From the NCBI GenBank assembly GCA_902506565.1, contig LR732703.1, positions 4,016,709 through 4,080,708 on the forward strand: a stretch of 64,000 nt of DNA. Reading direction: 5' to 3'. Numbering within the stretch: position 1 is the first letter of the stretch; each line of letters opens with the position of its first letter. This DNA comes from Burkholderiales bacterium 8X (GTDB taxonomy: Bacteria > Pseudomonadota > Gammaproteobacteria > Burkholderiales > Burkholderiaceae_C). Positions 26,247 to 33,480 of the stretch are shown one piece after another. The position numbers were made by a program, and so were the translations under genes. The notes beneath the pieces are model-generated. The model searched no databases. It was not told where the DNA came from and saw only the letters and a program-made list of their open reading frames with translations.

Positions 26247-26771
26247 CTACGCCCGCTGCCATTCGGCCAGGTCGGCCGATTCGAGCTTGCCCATTTTACG
26301 GGCGAGCCTTTGGCCCTTGGCATCGAGGACCAGGGTAAAGGGCAAGCCGCCCTTGGTATTTCCGAGCGCCTTCACGAACTCGGTGCCGTCCAGACCCGCA
26401 AGGCCTACCGGATAGCTCACCGGCGTCTTGGCGAGGAACTTGCGCACGGCGCTCGGCTGGTCGATCGCCAGTCCGACGACTTGCCAGCCGTTGCGTGCGT
26501 TTTCGCGGAAGAAGGCATCGATCATCGGCATCTCCTCGATGCACGGCGGACACCAGGTCGCCCAGAAATTGAGCAGCAGCGGTTTGCCCTTCAACTGCTC
26601 GAAAGCGACCTCCTTGCCGTCCGGCCCCTCGAACCGATGCGTCCAGAAGTCGGCGCCCATCGACTCGCCCGAAGACTCGCGGCGTTGCTGCCACACCGCG
26701 CCTGCGACTCCTGCGGTGGCTGCCGTCGCAGCGATCGCGAAGGTCAACCAACGCCTACGTTCCTGATTCAT
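26247..26771 (-). CDS. TlpA/ResA-family thiol:disulfide oxidoreductase
   Basis: Membrane-anchored periplasmic thioredoxin of 174 residues. A twin-Arg-like basic start and a TM or signal helix (about 9-26) precede a thioredoxin fold with C74-P-P-C77 in NFWATWCPPCIEEMP and a cis-Pro region near GGLPFTLVLD. The WCPPC site with the E-E-M-P helix is typical of TlpA/ResA/DsbE proteins that reduce apocytochrome or copper-site cysteines. The exact substrate is unknown. Its start overlaps the end of the upstream gene by 17 nt, so the two are co-transcribed. Confidence 0.88.
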   Translation of the reverse strand: MNQERRRWLTFAIAATAATAGVAGAVWQQRRESSGESMGADFWTHRFEGPDGKEVAFEQLKGKPLLLNFWATWCPPCIEEMPMIDAFFRENARNGWQVVGLAIDQPSAVRKFLAKTPVSYPVGLAGLDGTEFVKALGNTKGGLPFTLVLDAKGQRLARKMGKLESADLAEWQRA

Positions 26772-27369
26772 CCTCGCTCCCCTTGTCTTGTGCCATCAGC
26801 CGCCGGAGCGCCGCAAGGTCGCCGCGCGGGGTCCGCCCTTGCGCATCGCGCTTGAGCGCGCCACGCAGGTCGTCCAAATCGTAGACCAGCAGGTGGACGC
26901 CCACTTCCTCGCCGAGCGGTCGGCAAATCGCATGCACGCTCAACGCCTCGACCTGCTCTCCATGGAAGCCGGTCACCATCCGCGGCTCGTAATCGACGTT
27001 GTGATCGATGAGCGCGATCTCGGCCGACTTCGAGTCGTCACAAAAAAGCTGGATATAGATGTCCGAAAGCCGCGTGGCCGTGCCATGCCAGACCGCACCG
27101 CCGACATGCGGGCGGAACGCGGCCATGCGCTCCATCCATTCGAGCGCCAAGAGGCGCAGCGCCTCGAGTTCCTGCGGCTGGGTGTCGCCGCAGAAGAGCC
27201 GGATGTAGTCGCGGACTTCCGACTCCACCTCGTCGTTGTTCGGCAGTGCGGTGCGCGATGGCAGCCCGAGGTCTTTCAGCGCTCGCCGCTTGGCCGGGCC
27301 GTATTCGAGGCCCTCCTCCACCACCAATCGGGCGGCGGTGGCGGCAATTTCGTGCTTGGACCTGTCCAT
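26755..27369 (-). CDS. Conserved hypothetical protein (beta-proteobacterial)
   Basis: A soluble protein of 204 residues with no TM or signal peptide. The N-terminal 60 residues are helical (IAATAARLVVEEGLEYGPAKRRALKDLG...). The second half is beta-rich (HVGGAVWHGTATRLSDIYIQLFCDDSKSAEIALIDHNVDYEPRMVTGF), ending in a charged tail. The start at 27369 is the first ATG beyond the divergent mpl promoter. Much longer readings upstream run through mpl in antisense and are rejected. It is divergent from mpl and overlaps tlpA. The second half might be a nucleotidyltransferase-like fold, but I cannot support a function. Confidence 0.78.
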   Translation of the reverse strand: MDRSKHEIAATAARLVVEEGLEYGPAKRRALKDLGLPSRTALPNNDEVESEVRDYIRLFCGDTQPQELEALRLLALEWMERMAAFRPHVGGAVWHGTATRLSDIYIQLFCDDSKSAEIALIDHNVDYEPRMVTGFHGEQVEALSVHAICRPLGEEVGVHLLVYDLDDLRGALKRDAQGRTPRGDLAALRRLMAQDKGSEDESGT

Positions 27370-27375
27370 GCTTTC

Positions 27376-27381
27376 ATTCTG
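27376..27381 (-). promoter_or_regulatory. -10-like hexamer 6 nt before the hypothetical gene
   Basis: CAGAAT on the minus strand ends 6 nt before the ATG at 27369, mirroring the TAGAAT in front of the divergent mpl gene 43 bp away. No Shine-Dalgarno sequence is seen. Confidence 0.38.
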
Positions 27382-27423
27382 CCCCGGTTGGCTCGAAGGC
27401 AGAAGCCGCGCCGGGTGCGTCCC

Positions 27424-27429
27424 TAGAAT
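27424..27429 (+). promoter_or_regulatory. -10-like TAGAAT 6 nt before mpl
   Basis: TAGAAT (5 of 6) ends 6 nt before the mpl ATG at 27436, with no Shine-Dalgarno sequence and no clear -35. Transcription from it would start at the first codon. Confidence 0.5.
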
Positions 27430-27435
27430 TGCGCG

Positions 27436-28866
27436 ATGCACATTCATATCCTCGGCATCTGCGGCACCTTCATGGGTGGCCTGGCCGCCCTCGCGCGCGA
27501 GGCCGGGCACCGGGTGACTGGCTGCGACGCCGGCGTCTACCCGCCGATGAGCGATCAGCTTCGAAACCTCGGCATCGAACTCATCGAAGGCTTCGGCGCC
27601 GACCAGCTCGGGTTGCACCCGGACATCTTCGTCATCGGCAACGTGGTCTCCCGGGCCCGGCTGGCGGACGGCAGCCCGAAATTCCCGCTGATGGAAGCCA
27701 TCCTCGACGCCGGCGCCGCGTACACGAGCGGTCCGGCGTGGCTGGCCGAGCACGTGTTGCAAGGCCGTCATGTGCTGGCCGTGGCAGGCACCCACGGCAA
27801 GACCACCACCACCTCGATGCTGGCCTGGATCCTCGAGTGCGCCGGCCTTGCGCCGGGCTTCCTGATCGGCGGGGTGCCGCTGGATTTCGGCGTGTCGGCC
27901 CGGCTCGGCGGCGAAGTGGCCGGCCGCCGACTCTTCGTGATCGAGGCCGACGAGTACGACACCGCCTTCTTCGACAAACGCAGCAAGTTCGTGCATTACC
28001 GGCCCCGCACCGCGATCCTGAACAACCTGGAGTTCGATCACGCGGACATCTTCGACGACCTGGCCGCCATCGAGCGTCAGTTCCATCACCTGGTGCGCAC
28101 GGTGCCTTCGTCCGGCCGGCTCGTGGTCAACGCCGGCGAAGAAAGCCTGGAGCGCGTGCTGGCGCAAGGCTGCTGGAGCGAAGTCGCTCGTTTCGGCGCC
28201 AGCTCGGACTGGCAGGCGCGCGGCAGCCACGACGCCTTCGACGTGGTTCGGCGCGGCGAGACGGTTGGCCGGGTCGAGTGGGGCTTGTCCGGTGAACACA
28301 ACCAGGCCAACGCGCTCGCGGCCATCGCGGCCGCCGACCACGTGGGCGTGCCGGCCGACGAGGCCGCGGCGAGCCTGGCGCGCTTTCGCAATGTCCGGCG
28401 CCGTATGGAGCTGCGCGGAAGCGTCGACCAGGGCGGCGGAACGACCGAGGTCTACGACGACTTCGCCCATCATCCGACCGCGATCCGCACCACCCTGGAC
28501 GGCCTTCGCAACAAGCTGGATTCGAGCGGGCGCGGAGCCGAGCGCATCCTGGCGGCATTCGAGCCGCGCAGCAACACGATGAAGCTCGGCACCATGGCGG
28601 CGCAGCTTCCCTGGAGCCTGGCCTCGGCTGACCTTTCGTTCTGCCACACCGGCGGGCTCGACTGGGATGCGGCGGCGGCCCTCGCACCGCTCGGCGATCG
28701 GGCCCGGACCGGCTCGTCGATCGATGGCCTGGTCGCGCAGATCGTGCAAGCAGCGCGGCCCGGCGATCACATCGTCTGCATGAGCAATGGCGGCTTCGGC
28801 GGCATCCACGGCAAGCTGCTCGAAGCGCTGCGCCAGCGCCAGGATGCCCGCGTGGCATCCACCTGA
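27436..28866 (+). CDS. mpl: UDP-N-acetylmuramate:L-alanyl-gamma-D-glutamyl-meso-DAP ligase Mpl
   Basis: Mur-ligase family enzyme of 476 residues that reattaches recycled murein tripeptide to UDP-MurNAc. An N-terminal Rossmann start (HIHILGICGTFMGGLAALAREAGH) precedes P-loop [13 protein letters not shown] near residue 117, the EADEYDTAFFDKRSKF motif diagnostic of Mpl, LEFDHADIF, and the C-terminal ligase domain with YDDFAHHPTA. It functions in the same pathway as AmpD encoded at 14691-15353. The following cupin gene begins 12 bp downstream. Confidence 0.96.
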   Translation: MHIHILGICGTFMGGLAALAREAGHRVTGCDAGVYPPMSDQLRNLGIELIEGFGADQLGLHPDIFVIGNVVSRARLADGSPKFPLMEAILDAGAAYTSGPAWLAEHVLQGRHVLAVAGTHGKTTTTSMLAWILECAGLAPGFLIGGVPLDFGVSARLGGEVAGRRLFVIEADEYDTAFFDKRSKFVHYRPRTAILNNLEFDHADIFDDLAAIERQFHHLVRTVPSSGRLVVNAGEESLERVLAQGCWSEVARFGASSDWQARGSHDAFDVVRRGETVGRVEWGLSGEHNQANALAAIAAADHVGVPADEAAASLARFRNVRRRMELRGSVDQGGGTTEVYDDFAHHPTAIRTTLDGLRNKLDSSGRGAERILAAFEPRSNTMKLGTMAAQLPWSLASADLSFCHTGGLDWDAAAALAPLGDRARTGSSIDGLVAQIVQAARPGDHIVCMSNGGFGGIHGKLLEALRQRQDARVAST

Positions 28867-28878
28867 CCCGGACCGGTG

Positions 28879-29460
28879 ATGCGCGCGCGACGCCTGATCG
28901 ACACGCTCGGCCTGAAGCCGCATCCCGAAGGCGGCTGGTTCGTCGAGACCTTCCGGTCGCCGCTTCGGGTGCAACCGGCGGATGGACGCCCGGCTCGCAG
29001 CGCGCTCACCACCATCTATTACCTGCTGGAAGCGCACCAGTTCTCGCGCTGGCATCGGGTGATGTCGGACGAGGTCTGGATCCACCTCGAAGGCGCGCCG
29101 CTCGCGCTCTGGACCAGCGATGCGGCCTTGCGCACGCCGCCGGCCCATTTGCGCCTCGGGCCGGTCGATCTGCACGGAACACGGCCGCAGCACACGGTTT
29201 CGGCCGGACTGTGGCAGGCCGCGAGGCCCCTGTCGGCAAAAACCGCGGCGGGAACCGAGCCGCGCGCAGCCCCATCGGCGATCCAGCATCAGTCCGAAGC
29301 TTCAGCTGAAGCCGAAGGCGGCCCTGCAGCCGATTTCACGCTCGTCAGCTGCAGCGTCGGCCCGGGCTTCGACTTCAGCGACTTCGCTTTCATGGCCGCC
29401 GAGAGCGAAGAAGCCGCGCTGCTGCGCCACCACTGGCCGGAGCTTGCTGCGCTCATCTGA
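28879..29460 (+). CDS. DUF985-type cupin protein
   Basis: A 193-residue single-domain cupin. LGLKPHPEGGWFVETFRS opens the DUF985 pattern. ALTTIYYLLEAHQFSRWHRVMSDEVWIHLEGAPL carries the first cupin motif with candidate metal or substrate ligands H53 and E59. VSAGLWQAARPL and SCSVGPGFDFSDFAFM are the second half. An Ala/Glu/Ser low-complexity insert (about 117-152) interrupts the domain between those halves and is absent from compact DUF985 proteins I know. The ATG at 28879 is chosen over a GTG at 28876. It is probably co-transcribed with mpl; the substrate is unknown. Confidence 0.8.
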   Translation: MRARRLIDTLGLKPHPEGGWFVETFRSPLRVQPADGRPARSALTTIYYLLEAHQFSRWHRVMSDEVWIHLEGAPLALWTSDAALRTPPAHLRLGPVDLHGTRPQHTVSAGLWQAARPLSAKTAAGTEPRAAPSAIQHQSEASAEAEGGPAADFTLVSCSVGPGFDFSDFAFMAAESEEAALLRHHWPELAALI

Positions 29461-29482
29461 CCGCCACGGCGCGGCATCAGCC

Positions 29483-30604
29483 TCAACCCCTCCGCTGCTT
29501 GACCGCCTGCGACAGCGTGTCCAGCAAGGACAGCGACTCCTCCCAACCGAGGCAGGCATCGGTGATGCTCTTGCCGTACTCGAGCGCGCCGACCGGGTCG
29601 ACGCCGGCGGTGAACTTCTGCGTACCGGGATTGAGGTGGCTCTCGATCATCAAGCCGAAGATGCTGTGGCTGCCGCCGGCGATCTGCGTGCCGATGTCGG
29701 CCGCGACCTCGATCTGTTTCACGTGCTGCTTGCTGCTGTTGGCATGGCTGCAATCGACCATCAGCTTCGGCGGCAGCTTGGCGGCTTCGAGGTCGGCACA
29801 CGCCGCGCGGACGCTCGCCGCGTCGTAGTTCGGCGTCTTGCCGCCACGGAGGATGACGTGGCACTCCGGATTGCCGTTGGTCTGCACGATCGCGACCTGG
29901 CCGTTCTTGTGGACCGACAGGAAGTGATGGCCGCGGGCGGCGGCCTGGATCGCGTCGGTGGCGATGCGGATGTTGCCGTCGGTGCCGTTCTTGAAGCCGA
30001 TCGGCGCCGACAGGCCGGATGCGAGTTCGCGGTGGACCTGGCTTTCGGTGGTGCGGGCGCCGATCGCGCCCCAGGCGATCAGGTCGCCGATGTACTGCGG
30101 CGAAATCACGTCGAGGAATTCGCTGCCCGCCGGCAGCCCGAGACGGTTGATGTCGATCAGCAGTTGACGCGCGATTCGAAGTCCCTCGTCGATCCTGAAG
30201 CTCGCATCGAGGTACGGATCGTTGATGAGCCCTTTCCAGCCGACCGTCGTGCGCGGCTTCTCGAAATAGACCCGCATCACGATCTCCAGCGTGTCGGCAT
30301 GCTGGTCGCGCGCGGCCTTCAGGCGCCGGGCGTATTCGAGTGCCGCCACCGGATCGTGGATCGAGCACGGCCCCATGATGACCAAGAGCCGATCGTCGCT
30401 GCCGGCCATGATGTTCCTGATCTTCTGGCGAGTGGCGGTGATCAGGCTCTCGACCGGCGTTCCGCTGATCGGGAAAAAGCGGATGAGGTGTTCGGGCGGT
30501 GGGAGCACGTTGATGTCCTTGATGCGTTCGTCGTCGGTCCGGCTGGTTTTTTCGACGCTCGCATACCAGCTGTCGCTGGCCGATCCGGTGCTCTTCGGGT
30601 TCAT
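29483..30604 (-). CDS. aroG: 3-deoxy-7-phosphoheptulonate synthase (DAHP synthase, class I AroG type)
   Basis: First enzyme of the shikimate pathway, condensing PEP and erythrose-4-phosphate. The 373 residues show the AroG/AroF/AroH family features: a regulatory N-terminus (RIKDINVLPPPEHLIRFFPI), VIMGPCSIHDP, RVYFEKPRTTVGWKGLINDP, GSEFLDVISPQYIGDLIAWGAIGARTTESQVHRELASGLS, PIGFKNGTDG, and metal-site residues in VDCSHANS and GGSHSIFGLMIESHL. The start is the ATG at 30604 behind AGAAGGA (30612-30618). A frame open back to 30736 only reads through the attenuator and leader. Expression is probably set by the attenuator immediately upstream. Confidence 0.97.
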   Translation of the reverse strand: MNPKSTGSASDSWYASVEKTSRTDDERIKDINVLPPPEHLIRFFPISGTPVESLITATRQKIRNIMAGSDDRLLVIMGPCSIHDPVAALEYARRLKAARDQHADTLEIVMRVYFEKPRTTVGWKGLINDPYLDASFRIDEGLRIARQLLIDINRLGLPAGSEFLDVISPQYIGDLIAWGAIGARTTESQVHRELASGLSAPIGFKNGTDGNIRIATDAIQAAARGHHFLSVHKNGQVAIVQTNGNPECHVILRGGKTPNYDAASVRAACADLEAAKLPPKLMVDCSHANSSKQHVKQIEVAADIGTQIAGGSHSIFGLMIESHLNPGTQKFTAGVDPVGALEYGKSITDACLGWEESLSLLDTLSQAVKQRRG

Positions 30605-30641
30605 CGCTCGATCCTTCTTGGTTAACGTTTGTTCAAGGCAT

Positions 30642-30678
30642 AAAAAAACCGCCGGGGCTTGGGGCACCGGCGGTTTTT
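30642..30678 (-). terminator. Attenuator terminator in the aroG leader
   Basis: On the minus strand AAACCGCCGG pairs with CCGGCGGTTT around an 11-nt loop and is followed by a run of seven T. It ends 37 nt before the aroG ATG, so it lies inside the aroG 5' UTR. The CCGCCGG of its first arm can instead pair with CCGGCGG at 30716-30722 inside the leader ORF, giving an antiterminator. Confidence 0.88.
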
Positions 30679-30696
30679 GGAAGGCTTGTGTGTTGC

Positions 30697-30771
30697 TTAC
30701 GCGCTCGCCTCTCGTCCGCCGGAATTCGGGAACCAAAAGTACGAGAAGTAAAAAACGGCGCGCAGCGACAT
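30697..30771 (-). CDS. Aromatic-rich leader peptide of aroG (attenuation leader)
   Basis: A 24-codon ORF (ATG 30771, TAA 30697-30699) just upstream of the attenuator. Residues 7-14 read FYFSYFWF: four Phe, two Tyr and one Trp in eight positions, followed by P-N-S. This is the hallmark of a ribosome-mediated attenuator sensing charged aromatic tRNAs. A ribosome stalled on these codons would leave CCGGCGG (30716-30722, codons 17-19) free to form the antiterminator. A ribosome that reaches the stop would allow the terminator. No Shine-Dalgarno sequence is visible; an extended -10-like element ends 8 nt upstream. Confidence 0.85.
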   Translation of the reverse strand: MSLRAVFYFSYFWFPNSGGREASA

Positions 30772-30779
30772 AGGGCCGG

Positions 30780-30788
30780 AATGTAGCA
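30780..30788 (-). promoter_or_regulatory. Extended -10-like element before the aroG leader peptide
   Basis: TGCTACATT on the minus strand fits the extended -10 form (TGn plus TACATT, 4 of 6). It ends 8 nt before the leader ATG, in the 50-bp gap after tldD. It could give an aroG transcript starting almost at the leader start codon. Confidence 0.45.
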
Positions 30789-30821
30789 CGGGCTTGGCTG
30801 CCAACATGTTGCGTTCTGGTA

Positions 30822-32282
30822 TCAGGCGGTGCCGCCGACGGTGAGCCCGTCGATGCGCAAGGTCGGCTGGCCGACGCCGACCGGAACGCTCTGCCCTTCC
30901 TTGCCGCAGGTGCCGACGCCGGAATCGAGCGCCATGTCGTTGCCGATCATGCTCACCCGCGTCAATGCATCGGGGCCGTTGCCGACCAGGGTCGCGCCCT
31001 TGACCGGATACTGGATCTTGCCGTTCTCGACCCAGTAGGCCTCGCTCGCCGAGAACACGAACTTGCCGCTCGTGATGTCGACCTGGCCGCCGCCGAAATT
31101 GGTGGCGTACAGGCCCTTCTTGATGCTGGCCACGATCTCCAGCGGATCGCGCTTGCCGCCGAGCATGTAGGTGTTGGTCATGCGCGGCATCGGCACATGG
31201 GCGTAGCTTTCGCGGCGGCCGTTGCCGGTCGGCGCGGTCTTCATCAGGCGGGCATTCAACGAATCCTGGATGTAGCCCTTGAGGATGCCGTCCTCGATCA
31301 GCACGTTGCGCTGGCTCGCGTTGCCCTCGTCGTCGACATTGAGCGATCCGCGCCGGTCGGCGATGGTGCCGTCGTCCAGCACCGTGACGCCCCGCGCCGC
31401 CACCCGTTCGCCGATGCGGCCCGAGAACGCGCTCGAGCCCTTGCGATTGAAGTCGCCTTCCAGGCCGTGGCCGATGGCCTCGTGCAGCAGGATGCCGGGC
31501 CAGCCCGGGCCGAGCACCACCGTCATTTCGCCAGCGGGCGCAGGTCGCGAATCGAGATTGGTCAACGCGCCATGGACCGCCTGGTCGACGTACTTGGCGA
31601 TGTGCTCGTCGTCGAAGTAGTCGAGCCCGAAGCGGCCACCGCCGCCGCCCGAGCCCATTTCGCGGCGCCCGTTCTGCTCGGCAATGACCGTGACCGACAG
31701 GCGCACCAGCGGCCGGACATCCGCGGCCAGGGTGCCGTCGGCTCGCGCGACCAGCACCACGTCGTATTCGCTGGCCAGCCCCGCCATCACCTGGGCGATG
31801 CGCGGATCGCGGGAGCGGGCGAGCTTCTCGACCTTGCCGAGCAGGTCGACCTTGGCCTGGCTGTCGAGGGTGGAAATCGGATCGACGCCGCCGTAGAGCG
31901 AGCGGCTGCCGGCCACCTTGCGGGCCGGCGTCTTGACGCGGGCATTGCGGCCGGCCGACGAGATGGTGCGCACGGTGCGGGCTGCATCGAGGAGCGAGGC
32001 TTCGGAGATGTCGTCCGAATAGGCGAATGCCGTCTTCTCGCCGCTCACGGCCCTCACGCCGACGCCCTGGTCGATGCTGAAGCTGCCGGTCTTGACGATG
32101 CCTTCCTCGAGGCTCCAGCCTTCGCTGCGCGTGTACTGGAAGTACAGGTCCGCATCGTCGACCTTGTGCGCCGTGATCTCGGCCAGCGCGCGGGACAGGT
32201 GCGTTTCGTCGAGGCCGAAGGGCGTGAGCAGGAGCTGCTGCGCCGTGGCGAGGCGCTCGATGGTGGGTTCGCGGGAGATCAT
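30822..32282 (-). CDS. tldD: Metalloprotease TldD
   Basis: Zinc protease subunit of 486 residues that works as a TldD/TldE heterodimer to degrade unfolded peptides; in E. coli it matures microcin B17 and cleaves CcdA. The HExxxH-type zinc motif is H267-E268-A-I-G-H272 in LLHEAIGHGLEGDFNRKGSS. Other family landmarks are SEGWSLEEGIVKTGSFSIDQGVGVRAV at the N-terminus and GTCGKEGQSVPVGVGQPTLRI near the C-terminus. The partner TldE/PmbA is not in this window. It lies 50 bp upstream of the aroG leader on the same strand and 43 bp after rodA. Confidence 0.95.
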   Translation of the reverse strand: MISREPTIERLATAQQLLLTPFGLDETHLSRALAEITAHKVDDADLYFQYTRSEGWSLEEGIVKTGSFSIDQGVGVRAVSGEKTAFAYSDDISEASLLDAARTVRTISSAGRNARVKTPARKVAGSRSLYGGVDPISTLDSQAKVDLLGKVEKLARSRDPRIAQVMAGLASEYDVVLVARADGTLAADVRPLVRLSVTVIAEQNGRREMGSGGGGGRFGLDYFDDEHIAKYVDQAVHGALTNLDSRPAPAGEMTVVLGPGWPGILLHEAIGHGLEGDFNRKGSSAFSGRIGERVAARGVTVLDDGTIADRRGSLNVDDEGNASQRNVLIEDGILKGYIQDSLNARLMKTAPTGNGRRESYAHVPMPRMTNTYMLGGKRDPLEIVASIKKGLYATNFGGGQVDITSGKFVFSASEAYWVENGKIQYPVKGATLVGNGPDALTRVSMIGNDMALDSGVGTCGKEGQSVPVGVGQPTLRIDGLTVGGTA

Positions 32283-32288
32283 CGCGGG

Positions 32289-32294
32289 ATTCTA
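32289..32294 (-). promoter_or_regulatory. -10-like TAGAAT 6 nt before tldD
   Basis: TAGAAT on the minus strand ends 6 nt before the tldD ATG at 32282, with no Shine-Dalgarno sequence and no recognisable -35. Confidence 0.5.
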
Positions 32295-32325
32295 GGACCG
32301 CCCCCCGCCCTGCGCACCCGAAGGG

Positions 32326-33480
32326 TCAGGATTGCATCAGCCGCCGGGCCCGCGAAATCGACATCAGGATGCCGAGCCCCAGCCCGAGCGTGACCATCGC
32401 GGTTCCGCCGTAGCTGATGAAGGGAAGCGGCACGCCGACGACCGGCAGGATGCCGCTCACCATGCCCATGTTCACGAAGGCATAGGTGAAGAAGATCATG
32501 GTCATGGCGCCGGCGAGGAGGCGCGAGAACAAGGTGGGCGCATCCATCGCGATCGCCAGCCCCCGGAAGATGAGGAAGATGAAGGCGCAGATCAGCATCA
32601 GGTTGCCGGTCAGCCCGAATTCCTCGGAATAGGCGGCGAAGATGAAGTCGGTGGTGCGCTCGGGGATGAACTCGAGGTGCGTCTGCGTTCCCTGCATGAA
32701 GCCCTTGCCGCCGATGCCGCCGGAGCCGATCGCGATCATGCCCTGGATGATGTGGAAGCCCTTGCCGAGCGGATCCTTGCTCGGATCGAGCAGCGTGCAG
32801 ACCCGCTGCTTCTGGTAGTCGTGCAGCACCCGCCAGTCGACCCCGTCGGCGCAGATCTGCGACTCGAAGCCGACGATCAGCGAAACCGCCACCAGGCCGA
32901 GCAACACCGGCGGCACGATCAGCTTCCAGGGAAGGCCGGCAAAGAAGATGACCGACATGCCTGCCGCCAGCACCAGCAAGGACGTGCCGAGGTCGGGCTG
33001 CTTCATGATCAAGCCGACCGGCACCGCCAGCAGCAGCGTCGCAACCACGAAGTCGAGCGGCCGCAGTTGCCCCTCGCGGCGCTGGAACCACCAGGCGAGC
33101 ATCAGCGGCATGGCGATCTTCAGGATCTCGCTCGGCTGGATCACCATGCCGACGTTGATCCAGCGCTGCGCGCCCTTCTTGGTGATGCCGAAGAGCGCCA
33201 CCGCCACCAGGAGCCCGACCCCGACCAGGTAGAGCGGAACCGCGAAAGCCATCAGGCGCTGCGGCGGCACCTGCGCCACCACGAACATGATGAAGCCGGC
33301 CAAGAGCATGTTGCGGCCGTGGTCGGTGAAGCGCGAGCCGTGGTCGAAACCGGACGAATACATGGTGACCAGTCCGGCGCCGGCGAGCAGCAGCACGGCG
33401 ATGGCGAGCCAACCGTCGAAGCCCTGGAAGATGGGCGCGATGCGCCGCGCGAGCGAGGGCTGTTGGAACACGGCTGACAT
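32326..33480 (-). CDS. rodA: Rod-shape SEDS glycosyltransferase RodA (MrdB)
   Basis: Polytopic SEDS protein of 384 residues that polymerises lipid II for side-wall growth with PBP2. About ten TM helices are visible. Family signatures include WINVGMVIQPSEILKIAMPLMLAWWF, KQPDLGTSLLV, the periplasmic loop with RVCTLLDPSKDPLGKGFHIIQGMIAIGSGGIGGKGFMQGTQTHLEFIPERTTDFIFAAYSEEFG in pieces, and GVPLPFISYGGTAMVTLGLGLGILMS. The catalytic Asp should lie in the LD/DP loop. It has usual neighbours such as mrdA only elsewhere. Its start has a GATAAT element 8 nt upstream. Confidence 0.96.
   Translation of the reverse strand: MSAVFQQPSLARRIAPIFQGFDGWLAIAVLLLAGAGLVTMYSSGFDHGSRFTDHGRNMLLAGFIMFVVAQVPPQRLMAFAVPLYLVGVGLLVAVALFGITKKGAQRWINVGMVIQPSEILKIAMPLMLAWWFQRREGQLRPLDFVVATLLLAVPVGLIMKQPDLGTSLLVLAAGMSVIFFAGLPWKLIVPPVLLGLVAVSLIVGFESQICADGVDWRVLHDYQKQRVCTLLDPSKDPLGKGFHIIQGMIAIGSGGIGGKGFMQGTQTHLEFIPERTTDFIFAAYSEEFGLTGNLMLICAFIFLIFRGLAIAMDAPTLFSRLLAGAMTMIFFTYAFVNMGMVSGILPVVGVPLPFISYGGTAMVTLGLGLGILMSISRARRLMQS

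Follow-up and report, generated by a model that had tools for sequence, protein, structure and literature searches.

The aroG gene of Burkholderiales bacterium 8X is preceded by a conserved element that we take, with a probability of about 0.9, to be a ribosome-mediated transcription attenuator, in which the supply of charged tRNA-Phe, tRNA-Tyr, and tRNA-Trp would set aroG expression. The original prediction, read from the 64,000-nt stretch of DNA analyzed here (the window), had proposed attenuation of aroG by a translating ribosome, and this proposal is supported by the conservation of the element, the matching of its RNA arms among loci, and the matches of a covariance model. Codons for the aromatic products are clustered in a short leader ORF, and an intrinsic terminator lies between this ORF and aroG.

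All features of the locus are on the minus strand. The putatively controlled gene, aroG (29483..30604), encodes a 3-deoxy-7-phosphoheptulonate (DAHP) synthase, and its product scores 529.8 bits against TIGR00034 (cut-off 173.2). It is the only DAHP synthase found in the genome, in which the only other PF00793 match is KDO-8-P synthase and class II DAHP synthase has no match. The upstream gene, tldD (30822..32282; NF008006), lies outside the switch and ends 50 nt before the leader ATG. Downstream of aroG, an ORF of 844 aa with an ATG start (26755-29289) has no NCBIfam or Pfam match.

Translation of 30771-30697 gives the leader peptide MSLRAVFYFSYFWFPNSGGREASA, with 24 codons and a stop codon, in which residues 7-14 (30730..30753) read FYFSYFWF, in agreement with the original prediction. 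This ORF has no Shine-Dalgarno sequence and is preceded by an extended -10 promoter element, TGCTACATT (30788-30780), read from the sequence. The MFE fold places arm 1 (CUUCUCGU and UUGG; 30733..30748) within the aromatic codons. Arm 2, CCGGCGG (30722-30716), spans leader codons 17-19 and is the 5' half of the antiterminator, and a conserved GAGAGG block (30713-30708) adjoins it. Arm 3, AAAAACCGCCGG (30667..30678), includes CCGCCGG (30673-30667), directly preceded by five A, and serves both as the 3' half of the antiterminator and as the 5' half of the terminator. Arm 4, CCGGCGG (30655-30649), and the T7 run (30648-30642) form the 3' half of the terminator and its U-run (30642..30655); the assignments of arms 3 and 4 rest on sequence, fold, and alignment. 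The terminator arms read AAAACCGCCGG and CCGGCGGTTTT, and the T7 run ends at 30642, with the aroG ATG at 30604, 37 nt further on. Arm 2 and the CCGCCGG of arm 3 pair exactly over 7 bp; this alternative pairing with codons 17-19, the terminator with its seven T, and its distance to aroG are all exactly as had been claimed.

The leader stands out from its surroundings. Octapeptides with at least six aromatic residues occur at this spot only (three overlapping) in the six frames of the 64-kb window, and none occurred in 40 simulated first-order Markov windows. A 201-nt region folds better than its shuffles (z = -2.33), 5 of 200 shuffles being as good. A generic feature scan listed neither the aroG leader terminator, we think because of its loop limit of 8 nt, nor the promoter, because it requires a -35 hexamer.

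In the proposed mechanism, the transcript would start with the leader AUG or directly next to it, and a ribosome would load onto this leaderless RNA. With all three charged tRNAs plentiful, the ribosome would pass codon 14 and cover arm 2; arm 3 would then pair with arm 4, and transcription would end near 30642, leaving an RNA of approximately 130 nt. A shortage of any one charged tRNA would stall the ribosome within codons 7-14 and leave arm 2 free downstream, i.e., the three amino acids would be pooled in the manner of an OR gate. The free arm 2 would capture arm 3 while arm 4 is still to be transcribed, and the polymerase would continue into aroG.

The geometry of these stalls was computed by folding the nascent RNA as transcribed as far as the terminator loop, with positions from -18 to +12 nt around the A-site codon masked and everything upstream kept unpaired. 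In the window, stalls at codons 7-13 give a probability of 0.994-0.998 for the pairing between arms 2 and 3; the value drops to 0.713 at codon 14 and to 0.009 at codon 15, and it is 0.000 both with a ribosome at the stop codon and without a ribosome. Stalls at codons 3-6 would free arm 2 as well (0.84-0.98). The same folding was applied to 114 loci of the family and genus, 5 of 119 loci without an arm 2 of at least 5 nt being omitted. The mean probability reaches 0.96-0.97 for the three codons before the last aromatic one, falls to 0.78 at that last codon, and is 0.69-0.89 at earlier codons; it is 0.00 at the stop codon and 0.35 without a ribosome. In these computations, arm 2 is thus free when the ribosome stalls at the regulatory codons and covered when it has reached the stop codon, and the profile indicates that the aromatic run ends where stalling ceases to work. 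The full window RNA folds into the terminator at equilibrium (P = 0.905), and the antiterminator must therefore win kinetically.

Without a ribosome, arm 1 of the window engages both arm 2 and the GAGAGG block, in the MFE as well as in the masked fold. Among the relatives, GAGAG is present in 102 of the 114 family and genus leaders, eight times at or beyond the leader stop codon, and its pairing with upstream sequence averages 0.88 versus 0.82 in codon-order shuffles, being higher in 79 of 102 loci; the MFE of these loci lies below that of the shuffles in only 43 of 102. The block is probably the partner of arm 1, through the TTCTC of the last aromatic codons. For arm 2, the upstream pairing averages 0.60 versus 0.65 in shuffled upstream sequence and is higher in 48 of 114 loci. 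As this value does not exceed that of the shuffles, and as the antiterminator is favored (>0.5) without a ribosome in 37% of the 114 loci, an anti-antiterminator may be missing in many relatives, across which this part of the model is weakly supported.

The element is kept across a large group of bacteria that includes many Burkholderiales. The family sample contained one genome per genus and yielded 95 aroG upstream rows from 98 genomes with a match, the genomes with only weaker aroG matches (G100, G103, and G128) being left out. An aromatic leader precedes aroG in 91 of the 95 rows by the leader score alone, and in 89 it is joined by a terminator at threshold. L184 and L228, two further rows, combine a terminator with a weaker aromatic leader, and in two others (L231 and L233) the region upstream of aroG is cut by contig ends too near the gene. 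A second set of 91 family rows, used for the promoter, composition, and folding counts, was defined by a leader score of at least 1.6 and a terminator score of at least 25; it adds L184 and L228 and omits L183, in which the search found no terminator, and L216, whose terminator is just below threshold. The search found no arm 2 of at least 5 nt in 5 of 91 family rows. Within the genus, 36 relatives were searched and a locus was fetched from 29; the aromatic leader occurs in 28 of these 29 rows. In the exception (L088), a seeming frameshift in the leader breaks the aromatic run, and the terminator is intact.

The original prediction had named the Comamonadaceae as the group for comparison; the aromatic run and the paired arms are indeed conserved among relatives, and the element extends beyond the Comamonadaceae to other families of the order. 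In those families, 28 of 61 rows (from 109 genomes with an aroG match) were flagged with an aromatic leader, and 26 remained after L255 and L271, which pass the leader score, were judged spurious; L271 is still among the 209 loci of the arm-matching analysis. Among 80 named loci, 60 pass the leader test, 59 of them with a terminator. The leader reads, for example, MSAKFYFYFFWHLKPLADREG in Burkholderia-group genomes and MTCFFFTGYFYFSNSNPKAVE in Rugamonas. Leader lengths range from 14 to 29 aa, the peptide varies outside the aromatic residues, and the order of the aromatics differs between families. The aroG rows of Thauera, Azoarcus, and Methylotenera did not pass the leader test, and the same test found no aromatic leader in three Polynucleobacter and two Cupriavidus rows (L031, L032, L034, L035, and L038), whose aroG is 73-74% identical to the protein of the window. 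Many family genomes carry a second aroG, approximately 57% identical to that protein, and no such copy was found in the genome of the window itself. An aromatic leader precedes 0 of 20 of these second paralogs examined (L234-L253), out of several dozen found, and their control must therefore differ.

Covariance model R1 gave one full element, located before aroG when match positions were compared with aroG positions in each genome, in 40 of 40 family genomes (64-118 bits), many of which had contributed sequences to R1; the scan scored 85 first-look candidates in each. The other matches in these genomes are partial (at most 29.6 bits) and consist mostly of the terminator end, apart from one extra full-length match of 23 bits in G091, and no second full element was found in the genome of the window. 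Within the candidates scored, there is no sign of a regulon homologous to the aroG leader.

The pairing of arms 2 and 3 was compared locus by locus across the order. The arm 3 of a locus fits its own arm 2 better than a swapped arm 3 does (mean score 20.39 versus 18.52, sd 0.15), and 0 of 300 permutations were as good, relatedness being uncorrected among the 209 loci, of which 197 are distinct because some named loci duplicate others (L002 = L093). In five loci (L133, L173, L177, L207, and L214), arm 2 is CCGACGG and arm 3 is CCGTCGG, while arm 4 is still CCGGCGG, and L176 has the same change in a shifted form. The antiterminator of these loci remains fully Watson-Crick, and the terminator is left with a G.U pair. 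The CCGTCGG rows may represent a single clade and a single event; L205 and L232 carry other matched changes in arms 2 and 3. For the 74 loci without CCGCCGG in arm 3, comparison with the consensus showed the native arm 3 to fit better in 36, equally well in 17, and less well in 21. The matched changes across the order, with relatedness uncorrected, bear out an antiterminator inside the leader that is mutually exclusive with the terminator. The core of arm 2 (GGCGG or a variant) lies in frame 0 in 122, in frame 2 in 63, and in frame 1 in 5 of the 209 loci, is absent in 19, and encodes GG, AD/AE/AV, or RR depending on the frame. Beyond the aromatic residues, it is therefore the RNA and not the peptide that is conserved.

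Inside the family, the picture is less clear. In 45 family and genus sequences aligned with MAFFT, the antiterminator pairs in 86.3% of 315 cells (16.5-55.3% in slid controls) and the terminator in 95.1% of 450 cells. Double changes in the antiterminator occur in 4 of 315 cells, as compared with 5, 8, and 10 in the +1, +2, and +3 slides (three of six slides are higher), and the antiterminator covariation score of 0.073 in this alignment is equaled by the +3 slide; the terminator has no double changes within the family alignment. The arms hardly vary inside the family, where the pairing is conserved and the slid controls do as well on double changes. The compensatory changes expected by the original prediction are thus convincing across the order and not inside the family alignment, and the performance of the slid controls has slightly lowered our confidence in the attenuator.

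Most members of the family appear to have a leaderless leader ORF, a feature on which the original prediction was silent. Of the 119 family and genus loci, 109 have a TGn with a -10 element of at least 4/6 ahead of the leader ATG, and in 103 of the 119 this element ends 6-9 nt before the ATG; a Shine-Dalgarno-like motif is found in 1 of 119. The same type of -10 element occurs in 41 of 2380 base-shuffled stretches, the control covering 42 nt and the real search up to 60. From the spacing of the extended -10 element, transcription is predicted to start with the A of the ATG or directly beside it, i.e., at approximately 30774-30771 in the window, and together with the missing Shine-Dalgarno sequence this spacing predicts a leaderless transcript. 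In one Burkholderia-group locus (L051), a -10-like TATAAA lies much further from the leader ATG, and the leaderless trait may therefore extend no further than this family and its closest relatives.

The family leaders contain on average 4.4 Phe, 1.6 Tyr, and 0.95 Trp (91 leaders). All three aromatics are present in 83 of 91; Trp is missing in 7. The original prediction that one leader counts all three aromatic amino acids fits this genome but is not universal, as Phe dominates and Trp is missing in some lineages. In the order sample, 10 of 29 leaders lack Trp. Of the 6 Oxalobacteraceae leaders, 5 are without it, and in the remaining one it falls outside the run. A switch that is effectively a sensor of Phe (and Tyr), with the Trp codon a passenger of the YFWF block, is a narrower form of the same attenuator; it overlaps with the reading preferred here, and we consider it possible but doubtful. 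It would account for the excess of Phe over Trp and for the leaders without Trp, and the leader of Corynebacterium glutamicum AroR is reported to be Phe-Tyr-Phe. On the other hand, 84 of 91 family leaders and 28 of 28 from the genus retain Trp, and in the family leaders it is usually next to last in the aromatic run, the position at which stalling is most effective in freeing arm 2 (mean 0.97). As a separate observation, the Phe codons of the family leaders are TTT in 248 cases and TTC in 153, and the corresponding numbers in the window are 1 and 8 for aroG and 0 and 11 for tldD. The preference for TTT in the leader may reflect RNA pairing or slower decoding.

Two further explanations concern the terminator and the peptide. 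The hairpin might merely end the tldD transcript, the aromatic ORF being incidental: tldD is on the same strand and ends close to the leader, and a hairpin followed by T is common on its own, as the weak extra matches of R1, mostly to the terminator part, illustrate. We regard this as extremely improbable in view of the promoter-like extended -10 element immediately ahead of the leader in 109 of 119 loci, the conservation of the aromatic run, whose six aromatics in eight residues none of 40 simulated windows reached, and an arm 2 within the ORF that fits the first arm of the terminator locus by locus. Alternatively, the nascent peptide might act in the exit tunnel in the manner of TnaC and sense free aromatic amino acid instead of tRNA charging. 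The YFWF block, strikingly constant in many family members, would suit such a peptide; the variation in sequence outside the aromatics, in aromatic order, in length (14-29 aa), and in the frame of the arm 2 core would not. Moreover, TnaC-type sensing induces on excess, which is the wrong sign for a biosynthetic gene, and this explanation is very improbable. Attenuation by a translating ribosome, with tRNA charging as the likely signal, is easily the best of the readings.

The mechanism itself is classical. The E. coli leaders pheL, pheST, and trpL each contain codons for one amino acid and have a Shine-Dalgarno sequence, and they control a terminal-branch enzyme or a synthetase, whereas the gene concerned here encodes the first common enzyme. 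The likeness lies in the ORF rich in the regulating amino acid and in the alternative antiterminator and terminator stems, as the relevant passages of PMC11802643 describe for pheL-pheA (also pheST and trpL-trpE). The original prediction named pheA, pheST, and trp as the best-known cases of aromatic leader attenuation; for a DAHP synthase, a precedent exists in C. glutamicum aroR-aroF, in which, according to the passages on it in PMC11802643 and PMC4046766, a DAHP synthase is attenuated by a ribosome on a Phe-Tyr-Phe leader. That system belongs to the Actinobacteria, has Phe limitation as its reported signal, and has no Trp mentioned in those passages. In Sinorhizobium meliloti trpL-trpE(G), the 5' end of the attenuator RNA is the ATG of the leader ORF (PMC7298713); this leader is leaderless, as the aroG leader is predicted to be, and senses Trp only.

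In Ralstonia solanacearum, which has aroG1 and aroG2, deletion of one aroG raises the aroG-lacZYA fusion of the other approximately 10- to 20-fold (PMC6379268). In those deletion strains, 1 mM Phe lowers aroG-lacZYA two- to threefold, and in the wild type the effect of Phe is within the SD, e.g., 47 (9) to 40 (8) (PMC6379268). By analogy, this lacZ response is what such a switch would produce; "leader" and "attenuat" have no matches in the text of PMC6379268.

The aroG leader of Burkholderiales seems to be uncatalogued. A search of 29000-32500 against 4227 Rfam families (E up to 5) gave three matches, all below their gathering scores. The best of them, RNAI, reaches 20.3 bits where the gathering score is 47, and it was rejected as a probable chance match of the terminator-like type. 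No aroG attenuator in Burkholderiales is named in the titles or abstract openings among the matches listed from the open-licence literature. In the searchable part of Naville and Gautheret 2010 (PMC2965389), "aromatic" has no match and "aro" has one, and the part of Weinberg 2010 (PMC2864571) consulted contains a Burkholderiales-1 motif. Two traits of the aroG leader are notable, the three aromatics in a single leader and the probably leaderless ORF.

A further function is conceivable for the terminated transcript. The relevant passages of PMC7298713 report trans functions for the terminated RNA and the peptide of the S. meliloti attenuator (rnTrpL/peTrpL), and by analogy the leaderless aroG RNA of approximately 130 nt or its aromatic peptide could regulate in trans, although we hold this to be unlikely. 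If it were true, the aroG attenuator would, in much of the order, act as a reporter of the entire aromatic pool.

The element could join Rfam as a new family, with R1 as its covariance model. The seemingly leaderless leader offers a natural system for the coupling of leaderless initiation to transcription, and the run of mixed aromatic codons one for asking how a single attenuator weighs three amino acids. As only one DAHP synthase was found in this genome, one leader would gate the whole pathway, and the attenuator suggests in concrete terms how the entry step of aromatic synthesis may be regulated in many Burkholderiales.
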